28,989 nucleotides of DNA from a virus, in IMG/VR virus record IMGVR_UViG_3300030406_003847, positions 1 through 28,989 of that record, one strand, 5' to 3'. Of the stretch, positions 2,516 through 26,967 are shown in pieces. Below the pieces are notes generated by a model, which did no database searches, had not been told where the DNA came from, and saw only the letters and a program-made list of their open reading frames with translations. The first letter of the stretch is position 1. Every line of letters starts with the position of its first letter. Made by a program: the position numbers and the translations under genes.

Positions 2516-3196
2516 CTACGGGTGAGCCGGCTTGCCGGCATGATAGTCTCTAAGTATTTCGTCGGCGCTAAGCGCACGGCTGTAAAATCTAACGGTGTCC
2601 ATGTTGCCGGTCAGGTAATCATCAGGATTTCCCGCTGCATCATTTTGCCTTCGCCCAAACTCCCAAGGGGTTGTAGCGTGCCAAGCGATCGACGCTCCAT
2701 TGCCTGCATTTGTTGCTCGTAACTCCCCATCTACATATAGATGCAAGTCGTTGCCAGCGCCTTCATTTACGAAAGCGATGTGGTGCATATTGCCTTTGAC
2801 AGGGGGAGCGTACTGCACAAACTTTGCCCCAGGGCTGAAAAGAAAACCAGAAATAAGGGCGTTATTGTCTAGCATCGAAATGCCCATATCGCGACCGGTT
2901 TGCAATCCGTCCTTGCCCACTAGGTACTCACCGCCCTGAACAGGGGGGTTAGGGTTTTGCTCTCCCCATACTGAAATAGTAAAGGCACCACTAAAATTCA
3001 ACTTCGCAGGGTTGCCAACGGCGACGTAGTTTGAGTCACCAGTTACAAAGTTGGGGAACCAACTGCCATCACCGCTAAGCGTGCCGTTAGCAGGCGTGGG
3101 CATTGAGTCATACCAAGTGGTACCCCCAACACTTAGGCTCTCATAACGAGCGGTTGCATCACCGGTGGGTACTGGCGGACGTACTGACTTAACCAT
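2516..3196 (-). CDS. LamG/concanavalin-like domain virion protein
   Basis: The 226-aa product starts at ATG 3196, chosen over an upstream in-frame start (3232) because GGGGGAG lies directly before it. From about residue 50 it shows the LamG/ConA-like jelly-roll pattern: FSGAFTISVWG, NMHHIAFVNEGAGNDLHLYVDGELR, and the hallmark C-terminal MDTVRFYSRALSADEI followed by RDYHAGK. These domains bind carbohydrate or act as decoration on phage virions, often in fibres or host adsorption proteins. It overlaps the M15 peptidase stop by 8 nt. A receptor- or glycan-binding role is likely but inferred. Confidence 0.82.
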   Translation of the reverse strand: MVKSVRPPVPTGDATARYESLSVGGTTWYDSMPTPANGTLSGDGSWFPNFVTGDSNYVAVGNPAKLNFSGAFTISVWGEQNPNPPVQGGEYLVGKDGLQTGRDMGISMLDNNALISGFLFSPGAKFVQYAPPVKGNMHHIAFVNEGAGNDLHLYVDGELRATNAGNGASIAWHATTPWEFGRRQNDAAGNPDDYLTGNMDTVRFYSRALSADEILRDYHAGKPAHP

Positions 3197-3581
3197 TGCT
3201 CCCCCACCGTGCCGGACCCTGCCGGATGTCAACGTGTGTGAATGTTTTATACCGACCTAAGCCGCCGTTGGGAATAGCACCTGTCTCCATCAGGTCCTGC
3301 ACCCTGTCAGCTACAGCGGCAGCAGGCACGCCCATCACGTCGATGTCGGCTGCGATGCCCTCAAGGTGCTTGGAGTATTGGGCTCCCCCCACGTCCTTGT
3401 TGTGCTGCTCGCAGCGGTAGGCACTGTTGATCCTGATCGGGAATCCAATCTCGTCCCGGATGCGTTGCAGCGTCCAGGCAAGGTGGCGAGTGCGATCCGG
3501 GTAAGCACTTGGCCCATCACAATATTTGTTACACTTGCAGTAAAATTCTTTAGGGCTGAAGTTGGGTGGGTATCCGCTCAT
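3189..3581 (-). CDS. Peptidase M15 family protein (endolysin or virion-associated peptidoglycan peptidase)
   Basis: The 130-aa product carries the M15 signature SxHxxGxAxD as SKHLEGIAAD (residues 70-79; H72 and D79 zinc ligands). The final ligand is H116 in FTHVDIR, and the family motif INSAYRCEQHN is at 51-61. The length and single-domain form match phage D,D-/L,D-carboxypeptidase or L-Ala-D-Glu endopeptidase lysins. The N-terminus has three close Cys (15, 17, 21), which is less usual. No signal peptide is visible, so release would need a holin. It overlaps the upstream 1380-aa virion protein by 4 nt (ATGA). It could therefore alternatively act in wall penetration during ejection. Confidence 0.9.
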   Translation of the reverse strand: MSGYPPNFSPKEFYCKCNKYCDGPSAYPDRTRHLAWTLQRIRDEIGFPIRINSAYRCEQHNKDVGGAQYSKHLEGIAADIDVMGVPAAAVADRVQDLMETGAIPNGGLGRYKTFTHVDIRQGPARWGSNG

Positions 3582-18564: not shown

Positions 18565-18995
18565 TCACCATCTCCACTCAACGCCTACGGTTCCGACCCA
18601 ATCGGCGGAATCTCCCCAGGCAGCGCCTGCTGCGAGCGTTGCTGTGAGGTCGAGTTCACGCCCGACTGTATGTCTAGCAGCAACACCAGCATCCCACCTG
18701 TCAGTATTCCCAGCAAGAAAGAGGTCAAGACCCCCATTGTCACCAGGGCGCAGATCAACAGGGTTTATCCCTCTGAGTCCGAGGGCTTTCCCGTTTGGGC
18801 TGCTGCTGCCTCCACTGCTGCTCGCTTCTGCTTAGCAACATCTTCCATAGAGATTCCCAACACACCGCCTAATGCTCCTAGTACAGATGCAACGATAGCC
18901 TCTGTAGGCAGATCAGGCCAAAAATGGCTAAGCAAAACAGGAAGAAGCGCCGCAAGAAGGGACAGCCAAAGTTTGCGTGATTTCATCTTATCCAT
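18565..18995 (-). CDS. Predicted -1 frameshift product: holin-like N-terminus fused to beta-rich C-terminal domain (143 aa)
   Basis: Residues 1-70 are those of the holin-like gene. At the GGGAAAG heptamer (18792-18786) a -1 slip would continue for 73 codons to TGA 18567-18565. The added domain contains GINPVDLRPGDNGGLDLFL, GNTDRWDAGVAARHT, DLTATLAAGAAWGD and ends VGTVGVEWRW. The -1 frame is open from 18831 and contains no ATG, GTG or TTG. By hand count, 39 of the 73 codons begin with G, a strong coding signature. It fills the gap up to the 52-aa gene. Alternating hydrophobic residues and a terminal Trp resemble an outer-membrane beta-strand signal. Frameshifting is inferred; a sequencing error joining one long gene is the main alternative. 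Confidence 0.6.
18765..18995 (-). CDS. Two-TM holin-like protein (76 aa, zero-frame product)
   Basis: The basic N-terminus (MDKMKSRK) is followed by a first hydrophobic segment (LWLSLLAALLPVLLSHFW, 9-26), a short loop with Pro, and a second (AIVASVLGALGGVLGISM, 33-50). A charged, Ala-rich tail completes the protein. This layout is that of small phage holins that open the inner membrane for the endolysin. AGGGGA lies about 9 nt upstream of ATG 18995. It lies between structural genes, far from the M15 peptidase. The TAA at 18767-18765 ends the normal frame after the slippery site. Confidence 0.75.
   Translation of the reverse strand: MDKMKSRKLWLSLLAALLPVLLSHFWPDLPTEAIVASVLGALGGVLGISMEDVAKQKRAAVEAAAAQTGKPSDSEG
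18786..18792 (-). other. Candidate -1 ribosomal frameshift site (GGGAAAG)
   Basis: In the holin-like frame the heptamer reads G|GGA|AAG, the canonical X_XXY_YYZ phase. It is the same heptamer as in the lambda G/GT tail-chaperone frameshift. GGAGG lies upstream at 18813-18809 (16 nt spacer), a possible internal Shine-Dalgarno stimulator, though the spacing is longer than the 10-14 nt usually described. Directly downstream, CCCTC (18785-18781) can pair with GAGGG (18773-18769) around a 7-nt loop. The usual 5-9 nt spacer to the stem is missing, so this stem may not be the stimulator. Confidence 0.6.
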
Positions 18996-22337: not shown

Positions 22338-23924
22338 TTATGGAGACAAGTCTCCGAATAAATCTTCCAGAGGATTTGGTGCGAAGTCATCCTCGGAAGC
22401 TGTAGCAAAGGCACGTCCTGTCGCCATTTCCCACTCGATCATTTCTCTAGTGTTCGATGGACGTTGTTGTTGGACAACTTCTGCTACAATATCATCTACT
22501 TGATCTAATCCCATCAAAGCAAGGCCAGTTGCAATTACAATGTCATCGTGCTTGCCGCTAGCAGCCTCTACCTTGCCACGTGAGTTGTAAACTAGGGCAT
22601 TGGCCTCAGCCATAAAGTTCTGGTCGATCACCTCGCACCAGCCCCTTGTAATGTACTCGTAAAGCCTTGATAGTAGTAGGTTTCTGCTTTTGGCATTGGT
22701 GTTGAAACCGTACCGTGGGGTAAACATACCCTTCACTTTGTCCCAGTACTGATCCCGATACTGACGTGGATAAGCCTTGGATTGCAGGTGCTCAATGATG
22801 GACAGACCATAACTGTTGGACTCGACGACGGCCAAGGCGCTGTACTTGGCTGCCATCTCATGGACTACTTCGCCAAAATCCGACGGCGCAATGTGGTCGT
22901 AATAACTGGCCACCATTTCGATCTTTTGCTGATTAGATACATCAAGGACCATGATAGCACTGAAGTCACCCCCTGGGGAGCCACTAGCAGTATCCACCCC
23001 CATGGCGTAAACATGAAACTTCTGGGGTTGTTTGTAGATCTTAAGCCCGGCGGTCGTTGACTTGACAGGCCACGGGTCAGGGAAGAACCGGCTACCACTG
23101 GTGACAAACGCCATCTCCGCGGAGACAGGAAACTCCTGATTGAAGATCTGCCAGTTGTTAGCGCACTTGGTTCGCAGGACCTGCACCATCCAGTTACGCT
23201 GAGGATCGGTGAGGTTGTGCTTCTGGGCGTACTGTCGCTCTAACTTGCTGAAGTCTTTGAAGGCTGGGTTCTTGCGGGTGTAGCGATCATCAATCGTCCA
23301 GCCCATGAACATCTTGTCGAACCCATTCTCGGACTGCCACATCTCATAGGCTTCATTGAGGCCGTTAGCTGTAGACTCCAGAATGACGGTTGCGTTGGCC
23401 TCTGCTGTACCGAACAGACCTGCAATGGTTTTGCCGAGGTTGGGCCAGAAGGCGTACTCACTGGCGTGGATGTACTGGTAGGTCTGCCCACGGAAAGACT
23501 CTGACGATGCAGTGCCGACCTTGATCATACTGCCCGTCGCTAGCTTCAGGGTGTTCGACCGGTCATGCAACGCACGCACACGGATGTGGTTTGGCAGGTT
23601 CTTGTAGAAGAACTGGTAGATGGAGAAGATAGCCTTAGACGCTTCGTCGGTGTGGGCCACCACTGCGATCTTAGTGTTCTTCTTAAACAACGCTTTCCAC
23701 AGGAAGTACCCCGCAATAAACGTCGTTGACCCCAGCTTACGAGCCTTCAGGATCATCAAGTGGTTTTCAGTCTTGAGCTTCTCGAAGACTTCTTTCTGGG
23801 CCTGGTTCAGCTTGAGCGTCGTTTCCAAACCGTGGATGTCCACGATCTTGAGGTATCGCTCCGCAAAGTAAGGGAAGTCCTTGGCGCACCTAAGGATTTC
23901 CTTTTTTACTTTAACGCTGCTCAC
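22338..23924 (-). CDS. terL: Terminase large subunit
   Basis: The 528-aa product carries both TerL activities. The ATPase has a Walker A variant KARKLGSTT (60-68), Walker B-like YIHASEYAFW (151-160, acidic E156) and coupling motif ILESTANG (181-188). The RNase H-like nuclease has D311 in MGVDTASGSPGGD, E368 in VVESNS and D460/D461 in GKHDDIVIATG. TerL pumps DNA into the procapsid and cuts concatemers. The start is GTG 23924 in a TAGTG overlap with the upstream stop. The scaffold gene follows after a 51-nt gap. A short inverted repeat lies across the last codons. Confidence 0.95.
   Translation of the reverse strand: MSSVKVKKEILRCAKDFPYFAERYLKIVDIHGLETTLKLNQAQKEVFEKLKTENHLMILKARKLGSTTFIAGYFLWKALFKKNTKIAVVAHTDEASKAIFSIYQFFYKNLPNHIRVRALHDRSNTLKLATGSMIKVGTASSESFRGQTYQYIHASEYAFWPNLGKTIAGLFGTAEANATVILESTANGLNEAYEMWQSENGFDKMFMGWTIDDRYTRKNPAFKDFSKLERQYAQKHNLTDPQRNWMVQVLRTKCANNWQIFNQEFPVSAEMAFVTSGSRFFPDPWPVKSTTAGLKIYKQPQKFHVYAMGVDTASGSPGGDFSAIMVLDVSNQQKIEMVASYYDHIAPSDFGEVVHEMAAKYSALAVVESNSYGLSIIEHLQSKAYPRQYRDQYWDKVKGMFTPRYGFNTNAKSRNLLLSRLYEYITRGWCEVIDQNFMAEANALVYNSRGKVEAASGKHDDIVIATGLALMGLDQVDDIVAEVVQQQRPSNTREMIEWEMATGRAFATASEDDFAPNPLEDLFGDLSP
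22342..22355 (-). other. Tight hairpin at the 3' end of terL
   Basis: GGAGA-CTTG-TCTCC on the minus strand is a perfect inverted repeat with a CUUG-type tetraloop, spanning the last codons of terL. It has no U-run, so it is unlikely to be an intrinsic terminator. It could stabilise the upstream mRNA or mark a processing site before the highly expressed scaffold-capsid genes. This interpretation is inference. Confidence 0.35.
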
Positions 23925-25407: not shown

Positions 25408-26189
25408 TAGACTTCCCTTCCAGCATTACTTGTCCGCCTTACAGCAACGGAGTTAATCAGTTTGGCAAGATCCTCCAGAGATATGCCAGGATTAGCTTCC
25501 ATTGCCCTTCTAATCATACCATGAGGTCTAGGCAGGTTCCCTTTGCTAACCCCCTTGGATTCTTTGATGTACTTTTCCAACTGTTTAGCGCTGACATCTT
25601 CGCTACCGATTTCATCTCGTAGCTCCATAATGTCGGTTCTCATCTCCTCTGGAGAATAGCGTCCGTACTCTTCCATGTTAGCGCCAAGTTGTTTAAGCAA
25701 AGGCCCCTGTACTCGCGATAAAGCCTTACCGGGGCTGGCAGCCTTAAATGACTCATCGAAGGCGTGCTCTAACTCATGGCGAGTAACGCTTCTTTTCTTC
25801 TTGTCGGTCAACTGGCCAGGGTTCACACGAACGTCAGTGCCCGCTTTTTTTAAGCTCCTCCGGTGCTTAGTTGCACTTGTGGGGTTTTTACCCCGCTCTG
25901 TGTAGACACCGTACGCATCTCCAACTCGTTTCGTTGCGTAGACCGGGGTTGCTCTAACTGTGTCGTGCACATGCTCCAGCACATCGTCGTCAACTTCTAT
26001 GCCTTGTTTTGCAAGCCTATCACGAAAGCGATCACTAGTAAGCCTTTCAAGTAACTCATCTTTTTTTCTTGTAGCAGCCATTTGCACCGCCGCTGCCTCT
26101 CTAGGGGTAATACCTTTACCTTTGTAAACCTTGCGTCTGATGTAGGTAGGAAGGCCGAGCAAGAGTGTTGCGCGCGAGCGTTTACTCAT
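25407..26189 (-). CDS. Putative zincin-type metalloprotease (HExxH, 260 aa)
   Basis: Residues 137-145 are RHELEHAFD, a complete HExxH zinc motif (H138, E139, H142) preceded by hydrophobic/polar residues as in zincins. About 35-50 residues downstream lies the helix YSPEEMRTDIMELRDEIG, which could give the third ligand (Glu). The N-terminus is basic (MSKRSRATLLLGLPTYIRRKVYKGKG) and there is no secretion signal, so it would act in the cytoplasm or in the particle. TGATG coupling to the upstream gene and TAATG to the downstream gene place it in the terminase region. It could be a maturation protease or a peptidase-like structural relic. Confidence 0.65.
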   Translation of the reverse strand: MSKRSRATLLLGLPTYIRRKVYKGKGITPREAAAVQMAATRKKDELLERLTSDRFRDRLAKQGIEVDDDVLEHVHDTVRATPVYATKRVGDAYGVYTERGKNPTSATKHRRSLKKAGTDVRVNPGQLTDKKKRSVTRHELEHAFDESFKAASPGKALSRVQGPLLKQLGANMEEYGRYSPEEMRTDIMELRDEIGSEDVSAKQLEKYIKESKGVSKGNLPRPHGMIRRAMEANPGISLEDLAKLINSVAVRRTSNAGREV

Positions 26190-26542
26190 CAGACCTCCTT
26201 TCCAATCACGGCGCTAATCTTAGCGTAATGCTTGCGCATTTCGCTCAAGCCTTCCTTGATGAGCACCTCAGTGTCTTTTACTTCTTTCTCGATTGAGTCG
26301 AGGCGAGTTACCCACTGCAGGCGTTCCTCATCGTACTTGCGCACGACATCCATAAACCTGTCACGGGTTGCCTGCTCCCTGCGGTTACAGTCTTCCATTT
26401 GCTCACGTAGCTGTAGTTGGAAGTTGTCCGTCAGATCATCAAGGCGTTTTGCCATCTTTAGGTACAACCAGAATATAGCTCCACTGGCGAGGCCCAAGGC
26501 CCCGAAGTCCGCCAGCATTTGGAGTATCTGGTTGGAATCCAA
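26189..26542 (-). CDS. N-terminal-TM coiled-coil protein (117 aa), holin/spanin-like candidate
   Basis: A hydrophobic helix at about 12-29 (FGALGLASGAIFWLYLKM) is followed by a long charged coiled coil (RLDDLTDNFQLQLREQ... to MRKHYAKIS). This is the architecture of BhlA/UviB-like holins and of inner-membrane spanins. The start directly abuts the upstream stop. No zinc or catalytic motif is seen. Without a signal peptide the coil would be cytoplasmic or periplasmic depending on topology, which the sequence does not settle. Confidence 0.7.
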   Translation of the reverse strand: MDSNQILQMLADFGALGLASGAIFWLYLKMAKRLDDLTDNFQLQLREQMEDCNRREQATRDRFMDVVRKYDEERLQWVTRLDSIEKEVKDTEVLIKEGLSEMRKHYAKISAVIGKEV

Positions 26543-26766: not shown

Positions 26767-26967
26767 CTACCTCACTAAGTATTGAACAATAAGGGCCGTA
26801 GCGATTGGCGTCGCAAGCCCAACAAATGTGGTCATACGCACGACAGCCTTACTGATGTCGCGCATCTCATTATCCAACTTTTCAACGTCTTTGAACAGGG
26901 CTTTGATCTGGGTATCGTGCCCGTCGATCCGTGCCTCGTTCTTTGCAACCTTCGCTTGGACGGTCAT
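26767..26967 (-). CDS. Coiled-coil protein with C-terminal membrane anchor (66 aa), XhlA-like candidate
   Basis: Residues 1-45 form a heptad-like coil (KVAKNEARIDGHDTQIKALF, KDVEKLDNEMRDISKAV). Residues 48-63 are one membrane helix (FVGLATPIATALIVQYL). The coil-then-TM layout is that of XhlA/hemolysin-type small membrane proteins from phage lysis cassettes. It overlaps the upstream gene by 4 nt. A role in lysis is inferred from architecture. Confidence 0.68.
   Translation of the reverse strand: MTVQAKVAKNEARIDGHDTQIKALFKDVEKLDNEMRDISKAVVRMTTFVGLATPIATALIVQYLVR

Follow-up and report, generated by a model that had tools for sequence, protein, structure and literature searches.

A short gene for a holin-like membrane protein overlaps an open frame that has no start codon of its own. 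We asked whether ribosomes enter that frame by a programmed −1 slip and, if so, what the extended protein would do. The locus lies on the minus strand of IMG/VR record IMGVR_UViG_3300030406_003847, of which positions 1-28,989 are called the window; coordinates are those of the window unless stated otherwise.

A −1 frame without a start codon

The zero-frame gene (18765-18995, minus), taken from the list of open reading frames and holin-like by a scan of transmembrane (TM) segments and charges, has 76 codons. Its product begins MDKMKSRKLWL and then runs into two TM segments, which a hydropathy scan placed at residues 9-25 (18921-18971, minus) and 34-50 (18846-18896, minus); the second is Gly/Ala-rich and leads to a conserved EDVAKQK. 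A slippery heptamer, GGGAAAG, stands at 18786-18792 (minus) in the phase G GGA AAG, and the zero frame meets a TAA six codons past it. The −1 frame stays open between 18831 and 18568, up to a TGA at 18567-18565, and contains no ATG, GTG or TTG. Slippage would append 73 codons (18568-18786, minus), delineated by dN/dS, alignment and AF2 and made up of a linker and a four-stranded domain, giving a predicted fusion of 70 + 73 = 143 aa that ends in VGVEWRW. On the presence of two TM segments, the heptamer and its phase, the early zero-frame stop, the extent of the start-less −1 frame and the predicted product, as on the G found at the first base of 39 of the 73 −1 codons beyond the slip site, which we recounted, we agree with an earlier, sequence-only reading of the window.

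That reading had missed that the zero frame reopens past the TAA, as a TM-like shadow ORF with a TTG start (18758-18585, minus). Because of this reopening, base composition alone left the coding frame undecided; it was settled as −1 by dN/dS among homologues and by stops that break the reopened zero frame. For the domain region, dN/dS was estimated from 304 sequence pairs with 3-30% of sites different: it came to 0.25 when read in −1, to 0.81 for the zero frame and to 1.67 for +1, and most differences fell at third positions of −1 codons. Judged from these comparisons, the −1 frame is under purifying selection. The shadow ORF, with its dN/dS of 0.81 and with stops in L017, L018, L029, L036 and L037, was rejected as a gene.

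The 143-aa fusion matched 36 viral contigs, and profiles of the domain and of the holin part, used as further queries, brought the family to about 59 contigs of uncultured marine viruses of bacteria, in two diverged subfamilies. The earlier reading had proposed such homologues as a check on the −1 frame, and the offset was indeed kept in all complete copies inspected. The domain is present in every close N-terminal homologue (KSRKLWL...EDVAKQK type) long enough to show it; a distant two-TM protein, L107, is without it. Members of the second subfamily (L169-L183) have a different N-terminal part (MKNGGTGWRK..., ~41-55% identical over the matched stretch) and a domain ~33-40% identical, again in the −1 frame. 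Since the same offset recurs in about 59 separately assembled contigs, an assembly indel, the main worry voiced earlier, is excluded. A separate start for the domain was likewise rejected, since the window's −1 frame has none and none is conserved among the homologues, in some of which a TTG lies near the domain start. No relatives turned up in the collections of cultured phages searched or in one alignment scan of one-per-species bacterial and archaeal genomes, both of incomplete coverage, and no close cultured relative was found by TerL or portal, for which the best matches had 20-29% identity.

The slip site had been described as lambda-type. This holds for the window, but family-wide GGGAAAG is one of about eight heptamers that replace one another in homologues (GGGAAAG, GGGAAAC, AAAAAAG, CCCTTTG, CCCTTTA, AAACCCC, AAACCCT and CCCCCCG). 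The sequence varies between groups, the phase is constant and the position nearly so. Conservation of the heptamer, also suggested as a check, was therefore found in part: an in-phase slippery site is retained, but its letters differ and are degenerate (C CCC CAG) in L170-L172 of the second subfamily, the sole such exceptions, which still keep the −1 frame. In L173, L174, L177, L179, L180 and L182, a −1 stop lies immediately 5' of CCCCCCG, so that the slip must occur at this heptamer or later. By synonymous resampling, chance alone would give an in-phase XXXYYYZ heptamer in 3% of cases in the window, in 1.6% in the CCCTTTG class (L012, L029) and in 2% in the GGGAAAC class (L058); the figure rises to 7-43% in the A-run, C-run and AAACCC-type groups. 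From the aligned sequences, the conserved property is an in-phase slippery heptamer, not one sequence.

Possible stem-loops downstream of the window's site (18732-18785, minus; a CCCUC/GAGGG pairing and a second hairpin) were not significant (z = −0.46), nor was structure in the AAAAAAG group (z −0.12). Downstream structure was strong in L018 of the AAACCCC group (z = −3.98) and in L058 of the GGGAAAC group (z = −3.27). We also noticed a strong hairpin ~5 nt 3' of A AAC CC(C/T), overlapping the zero-frame stop, in L018 (3006-3045 of that contig), L017, L037 and L061; L017, L018 and L037 differ from one another in both arms of its stem.

The conserved offset, the in-phase heptamers, the lack of a conserved start and the purifying selection on the −1 frame together argue that the programmed −1 slip put forward earlier is almost certainly real. 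They equally weigh against there being no programmed shift, with an assembly indel, a decayed gene or a domain translated from an overlooked start in its place. We hold this to be very improbable, even granting the TTG seen in some homologues and a slip proposed from sequence alone. Among phages, most known cases of conserved −1 frameshifting are tail chaperones, with some capsid proteins. A tail-assembly chaperone identity was considered here and rejected, the genomic context being wrong and the product a TM protein. PMC10885494 cites work that ties frameshifting to lysis-gene expression in the RNA phage MS2, by another route. As the earlier reading had supposed for holins, the literature searched yielded no report of a frameshifted holin or barrel-type spanin, and neither did the searched passages of PMC10885494, on frameshift prediction, and PMC6139136, on spanins.

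The holin-like part and the beta domain

The zero-frame protein has the shape of a class II holin, being small, with two TM helices and charged ends. Lys and Arg around the TM segments are distributed 4/0/4, which by the positive-inside rule predicts an N-in/C-in topology. The domain would therefore be made in the cytoplasm, and no secretion signal was found on the fusion. Holin profiles of PHROG gave weak matches with some members only (phrog_9987, E 0.0017; phrog_297), and no Pfam holin family matched at cut-off. The TM segments, the charge pattern and these weak matches uphold the holin-like character attributed to the N-terminus at the outset. Taking the two-TM architecture and the profile matches together with the position of the gene (see below), we consider that it is probably a lysis gene.

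Two other TM proteins of the window are of interest. One (117 aa, 26189-26542) has a single N-terminal TM segment and a cytoplasmic coil, and is 31-86% identical in most relatives; its position varies between them, and in G011 it follows shortly after the fusion gene. By eye it is BhlA/UviB-like, a possible additional holin, and a convincing Pfam match is absent. The other (66 aa, 26767-26967) has a coil and a C-terminal TM segment and resembles XhlA-type hemolysin/holin partners, with weak PHROG matches. Either could be the real holin.

AF2, run on family alignments, gave a four-stranded meander for both subfamilies, with pLDDT values of 87.7 for that of the window and 83.4 for the second. 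The predicted strands cover residues 12-21 (18709-18738), 25-36 (18664-18699), 40-51 (18619-18654) and 57-66 (18574-18603) of alignment A2, all on the minus strand. The chain ends in TVGVEWRW-COOH (18568-18591, minus), and across alignments A2 and A5 this end is of the xxGxxWxW type, with the Gly and the terminal Trp invariant. It comes close to the outer-membrane beta-signal described in the general literature. Hydrophobic/polar alternation on the strands exceeded that of within-strand shuffles in all 12 of the diverse members compared (P ≤ 0.002), and Trp residues sit at strand ends. A beta-rich domain whose last strand resembles the beta-signal had been suggested from the window alone, and the modelled strands, their alternation and the invariant residues support it: a four-stranded amphipathic sheet with a beta-signal-like C-terminus is predicted.

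When both models were compared with the PDB by Foldseek, AtaA, Hia, YadA and EspP were among the best matches; these were individually weak (E 0.04-0.2, TM ~0.5), and soluble methyltransferase sheets scored equally. In the viral structure library BFVD, the matches were phage proteins named YadA-like anchor or agglutinating adhesin. Several belong to cultured phages with short "YadA-like membrane anchor" proteins of 90-122 aa, possibly comparable envelope proteins. At the level of sequence, the domain gave nothing convincing against Pfam or the PDB: the YadA anchor family was unmatched, and the lone Pfam match was OpcA (0.19), with one of 22 sequences. Weighing the strand alternation, the C-terminal residues and the fold matches, and also the lack of spanins described below, we put the chances that the domain is directed to the outer membrane at about even.

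Genomic setting and possible roles

Genomic context was studied in ten relatives with most of the genome in hand, among which the zero-frame protein is 67-90% identical and TerL only 31-61%. In nine of the ten, the fusion gene lies 3' of an endolysin/LamG cassette, within ~1-2 kb, a count that includes G002, where contig ends separate the genes, which are taken as adjacent on the assumption that the map is circular or permuted. In G013 the gene is found close to the terminase genes. The window and the second subfamily have it between the MCP and portal genes, at a distance from the endolysin. The window's own M15 endolysin (3189-3581, minus; PF08291, 2e-24) has its homologue just upstream of the fusion gene in most relatives; a LamG/concanavalin-like protein (2516-3232) adjoins it and is conserved in the relatives' lysis cassette. 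Because its positions relative to endolysin, terminase and MCP/portal differ, the gene moves, most often within late or lysis modules.

Scanned for lipoboxes with a tool that recovers T7 18.7 and lambda Rz1 as controls, neither the window nor the ten relatives yielded a credible spanin lipoprotein. The sole candidate lipoprotein was a 60-aa ORF with a weak lipobox, TASC, conserved in two genomes (contig coordinates 30421-30603, minus, in G011 and 22596-22778 in G012). According to PMC6139136, known u-spanins combine an N-terminal lipobox with a C-terminal TM helix, and one survey did not find a spanin in 91 of 677 phages. The fusion has no N-terminal lipobox, and its C-terminus is occupied by the domain instead of a TM helix; as for a two-component spanin, the −1 frame has neither lipobox nor start codon. 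The likeness to a unimolecular spanin seen by the sequence-only reading does not extend to these features, and the positive-inside rule places the domain in the cytoplasm. The outer membrane would therefore be reachable only after a breach of the inner membrane or through an unusual topology. On these terms, a spanin-like role, linking or acting on the two membranes, is plausible.

In the mechanism that we propose, most ribosomes would make the 76-aa two-TM protein, and some would move back by one base at X XXY YYZ, adding the 73-aa tail to give the 143-aa protein. The majority product would form, or help form, an inner-membrane lesion, and the minority product would sit in the same assemblies with its beta domain on the cytoplasmic side. 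Because of this predicted location, action is proposed only after the lesion opens: cytoplasm and periplasm would become continuous, and the domain would meet the periplasm and the outer membrane. There it would oligomerise, like trimeric-autotransporter anchors with four strands from each chain, and tie or break the membrane. The extended form would stand in for a spanin, apparently missing in these phages, and the frameshift would set how much outer-membrane-breaker is made per hole-former. Speaking for this are the conservation of offset and phase, the dN/dS values, the hairpins in two groups, the AF2 meander, the barrel-anchor matches, the strand alternation, the post-endolysin position in nine of ten relatives and the absent spanin lipoprotein. 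Against it stand the N-in/C-in topology, the missing secretion signal, the MCP/portal position, the weak fold matches, the lack of a sequence family, the non-significant RNA structure in the window (z −0.46) and the alternative holin candidates. The full spanin-substitute mechanism is the reading that we favour among those considered, but it is tentative and, taken as a whole, less likely than not. We think it unlikely that the protein is a new kind of lysis effector, whose zero-frame product opens the inner membrane and whose slip couples inner and outer rupture through an oligomeric outer-membrane beta-barrel domain, with no need of a lipoprotein spanin.

The frameshift may be real and the domain have no link to the outer membrane, being a soluble cytoplasmic or host-interaction module that, for example, dimerises via its hydrophobic face. 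The predicted topology and the equal Foldseek scores of soluble four-stranded sheets and barrels agree with such a module, but barrel strands account better for Trp at strand ends, the strict dyad alternation and the invariance of the Gly and of the last Trp, and we would not expect it to be the answer. The extended form could instead be an antiholin or lysis timer, co-assembling with the short holin and delaying pore opening, with the beta domain as a cytoplasmic oligomerisation or gating module. Pore opening is delayed in this manner by the longer S107 form of lambda S. The N-in/C-in topology would put the domain where gating is possible, a frameshift supplies the short and the long form of the membrane protein in constant proportion, and the gene is 3' of the endolysin in most relatives. 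A timer, however, does not require a sheet that is amphipathic in the manner of outer-membrane proteins and whose beta-signal-like end is conserved down to the final Trp, and a dual start at MDKM in the style of lambda S, which we rejected, is not conserved (M4 is V or I in homologues), so that an antiholin seems rather unlikely.

The extended form could also be a virion or DNA-ejection protein, packaged in few copies and helping at infection to build an envelope-crossing conduit, with its TM hairpin in the inner membrane and its beta domain seated in the outer one. This would suit the window and the second subfamily, which place the gene between MCP and portal, and frameshift-extended minor virion proteins are known (T7 gp10A/10B). 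We nevertheless judge it improbable in view of the place 3' of the endolysin in nine of the ten other genomes and of the weakly holin-like N-terminus.

The slip and the domain, kept in every relative inspected, hint at a construction for cell-bursting or envelope-crossing proteins that would be new. For phages in which no spanin is found, this family offers a concrete candidate for the breaking of the outer membrane, in an uncultured marine lineage. A lysis-type membrane protein would also join the few phage gene classes with conserved −1 frameshifting. The slip site itself shows repeated exchange of its sequence at a constant phase. Lacking a start codon, the domain will escape gene callers.

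Comparison with known systems

With class II holins (T7 gp17.5, phage 21 S), the zero-frame protein shares a small two-TM hairpin, the N-in/C-in arrangement predicted from charge and, in most relatives, a place near the endolysin. It differs from them in the frameshift-encoded beta domain, the highly conserved cytoplasmic EDVAKQK and the weakness of the profile matches. The proposed outer-membrane action recalls spanins (Rz/Rz1, T1 gp11-type), and the overlap of the domain with the upstream gene in another frame recalls embedded or overlapped o-spanins; unlike these, the domain has no lipobox or start of its own, a barrel-like sheet takes the place of the lipid anchor and the predicted topology is opposite. 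The anchors of trimeric autotransporters (YadA, Hia, AtaA) resemble it in the four-stranded meander, the aromatic C-terminus and the recurrent fold match, whereas here sequence match and secretion signal are lacking, an inner-membrane hairpin is attached and a trimer is conjectured.

One gene giving two products in a set ratio is also the arrangement of T7 10A/10B and of lambda S105/S107, although the T7 case is a capsid protein and lambda S uses two starts. The closest parallel for the slip itself is lambda gpG/gpGT, with other tail-chaperone −1 shifts: an X XXY YYZ site, which in the window is the same GGGAAAG, places a C-terminal domain on the minority product. In contrast to gpG/gpGT, the gene is not a chaperone before the tape measure gene but a TM holin-like gene near the endolysin or portal, and within the present family the heptamer varies.
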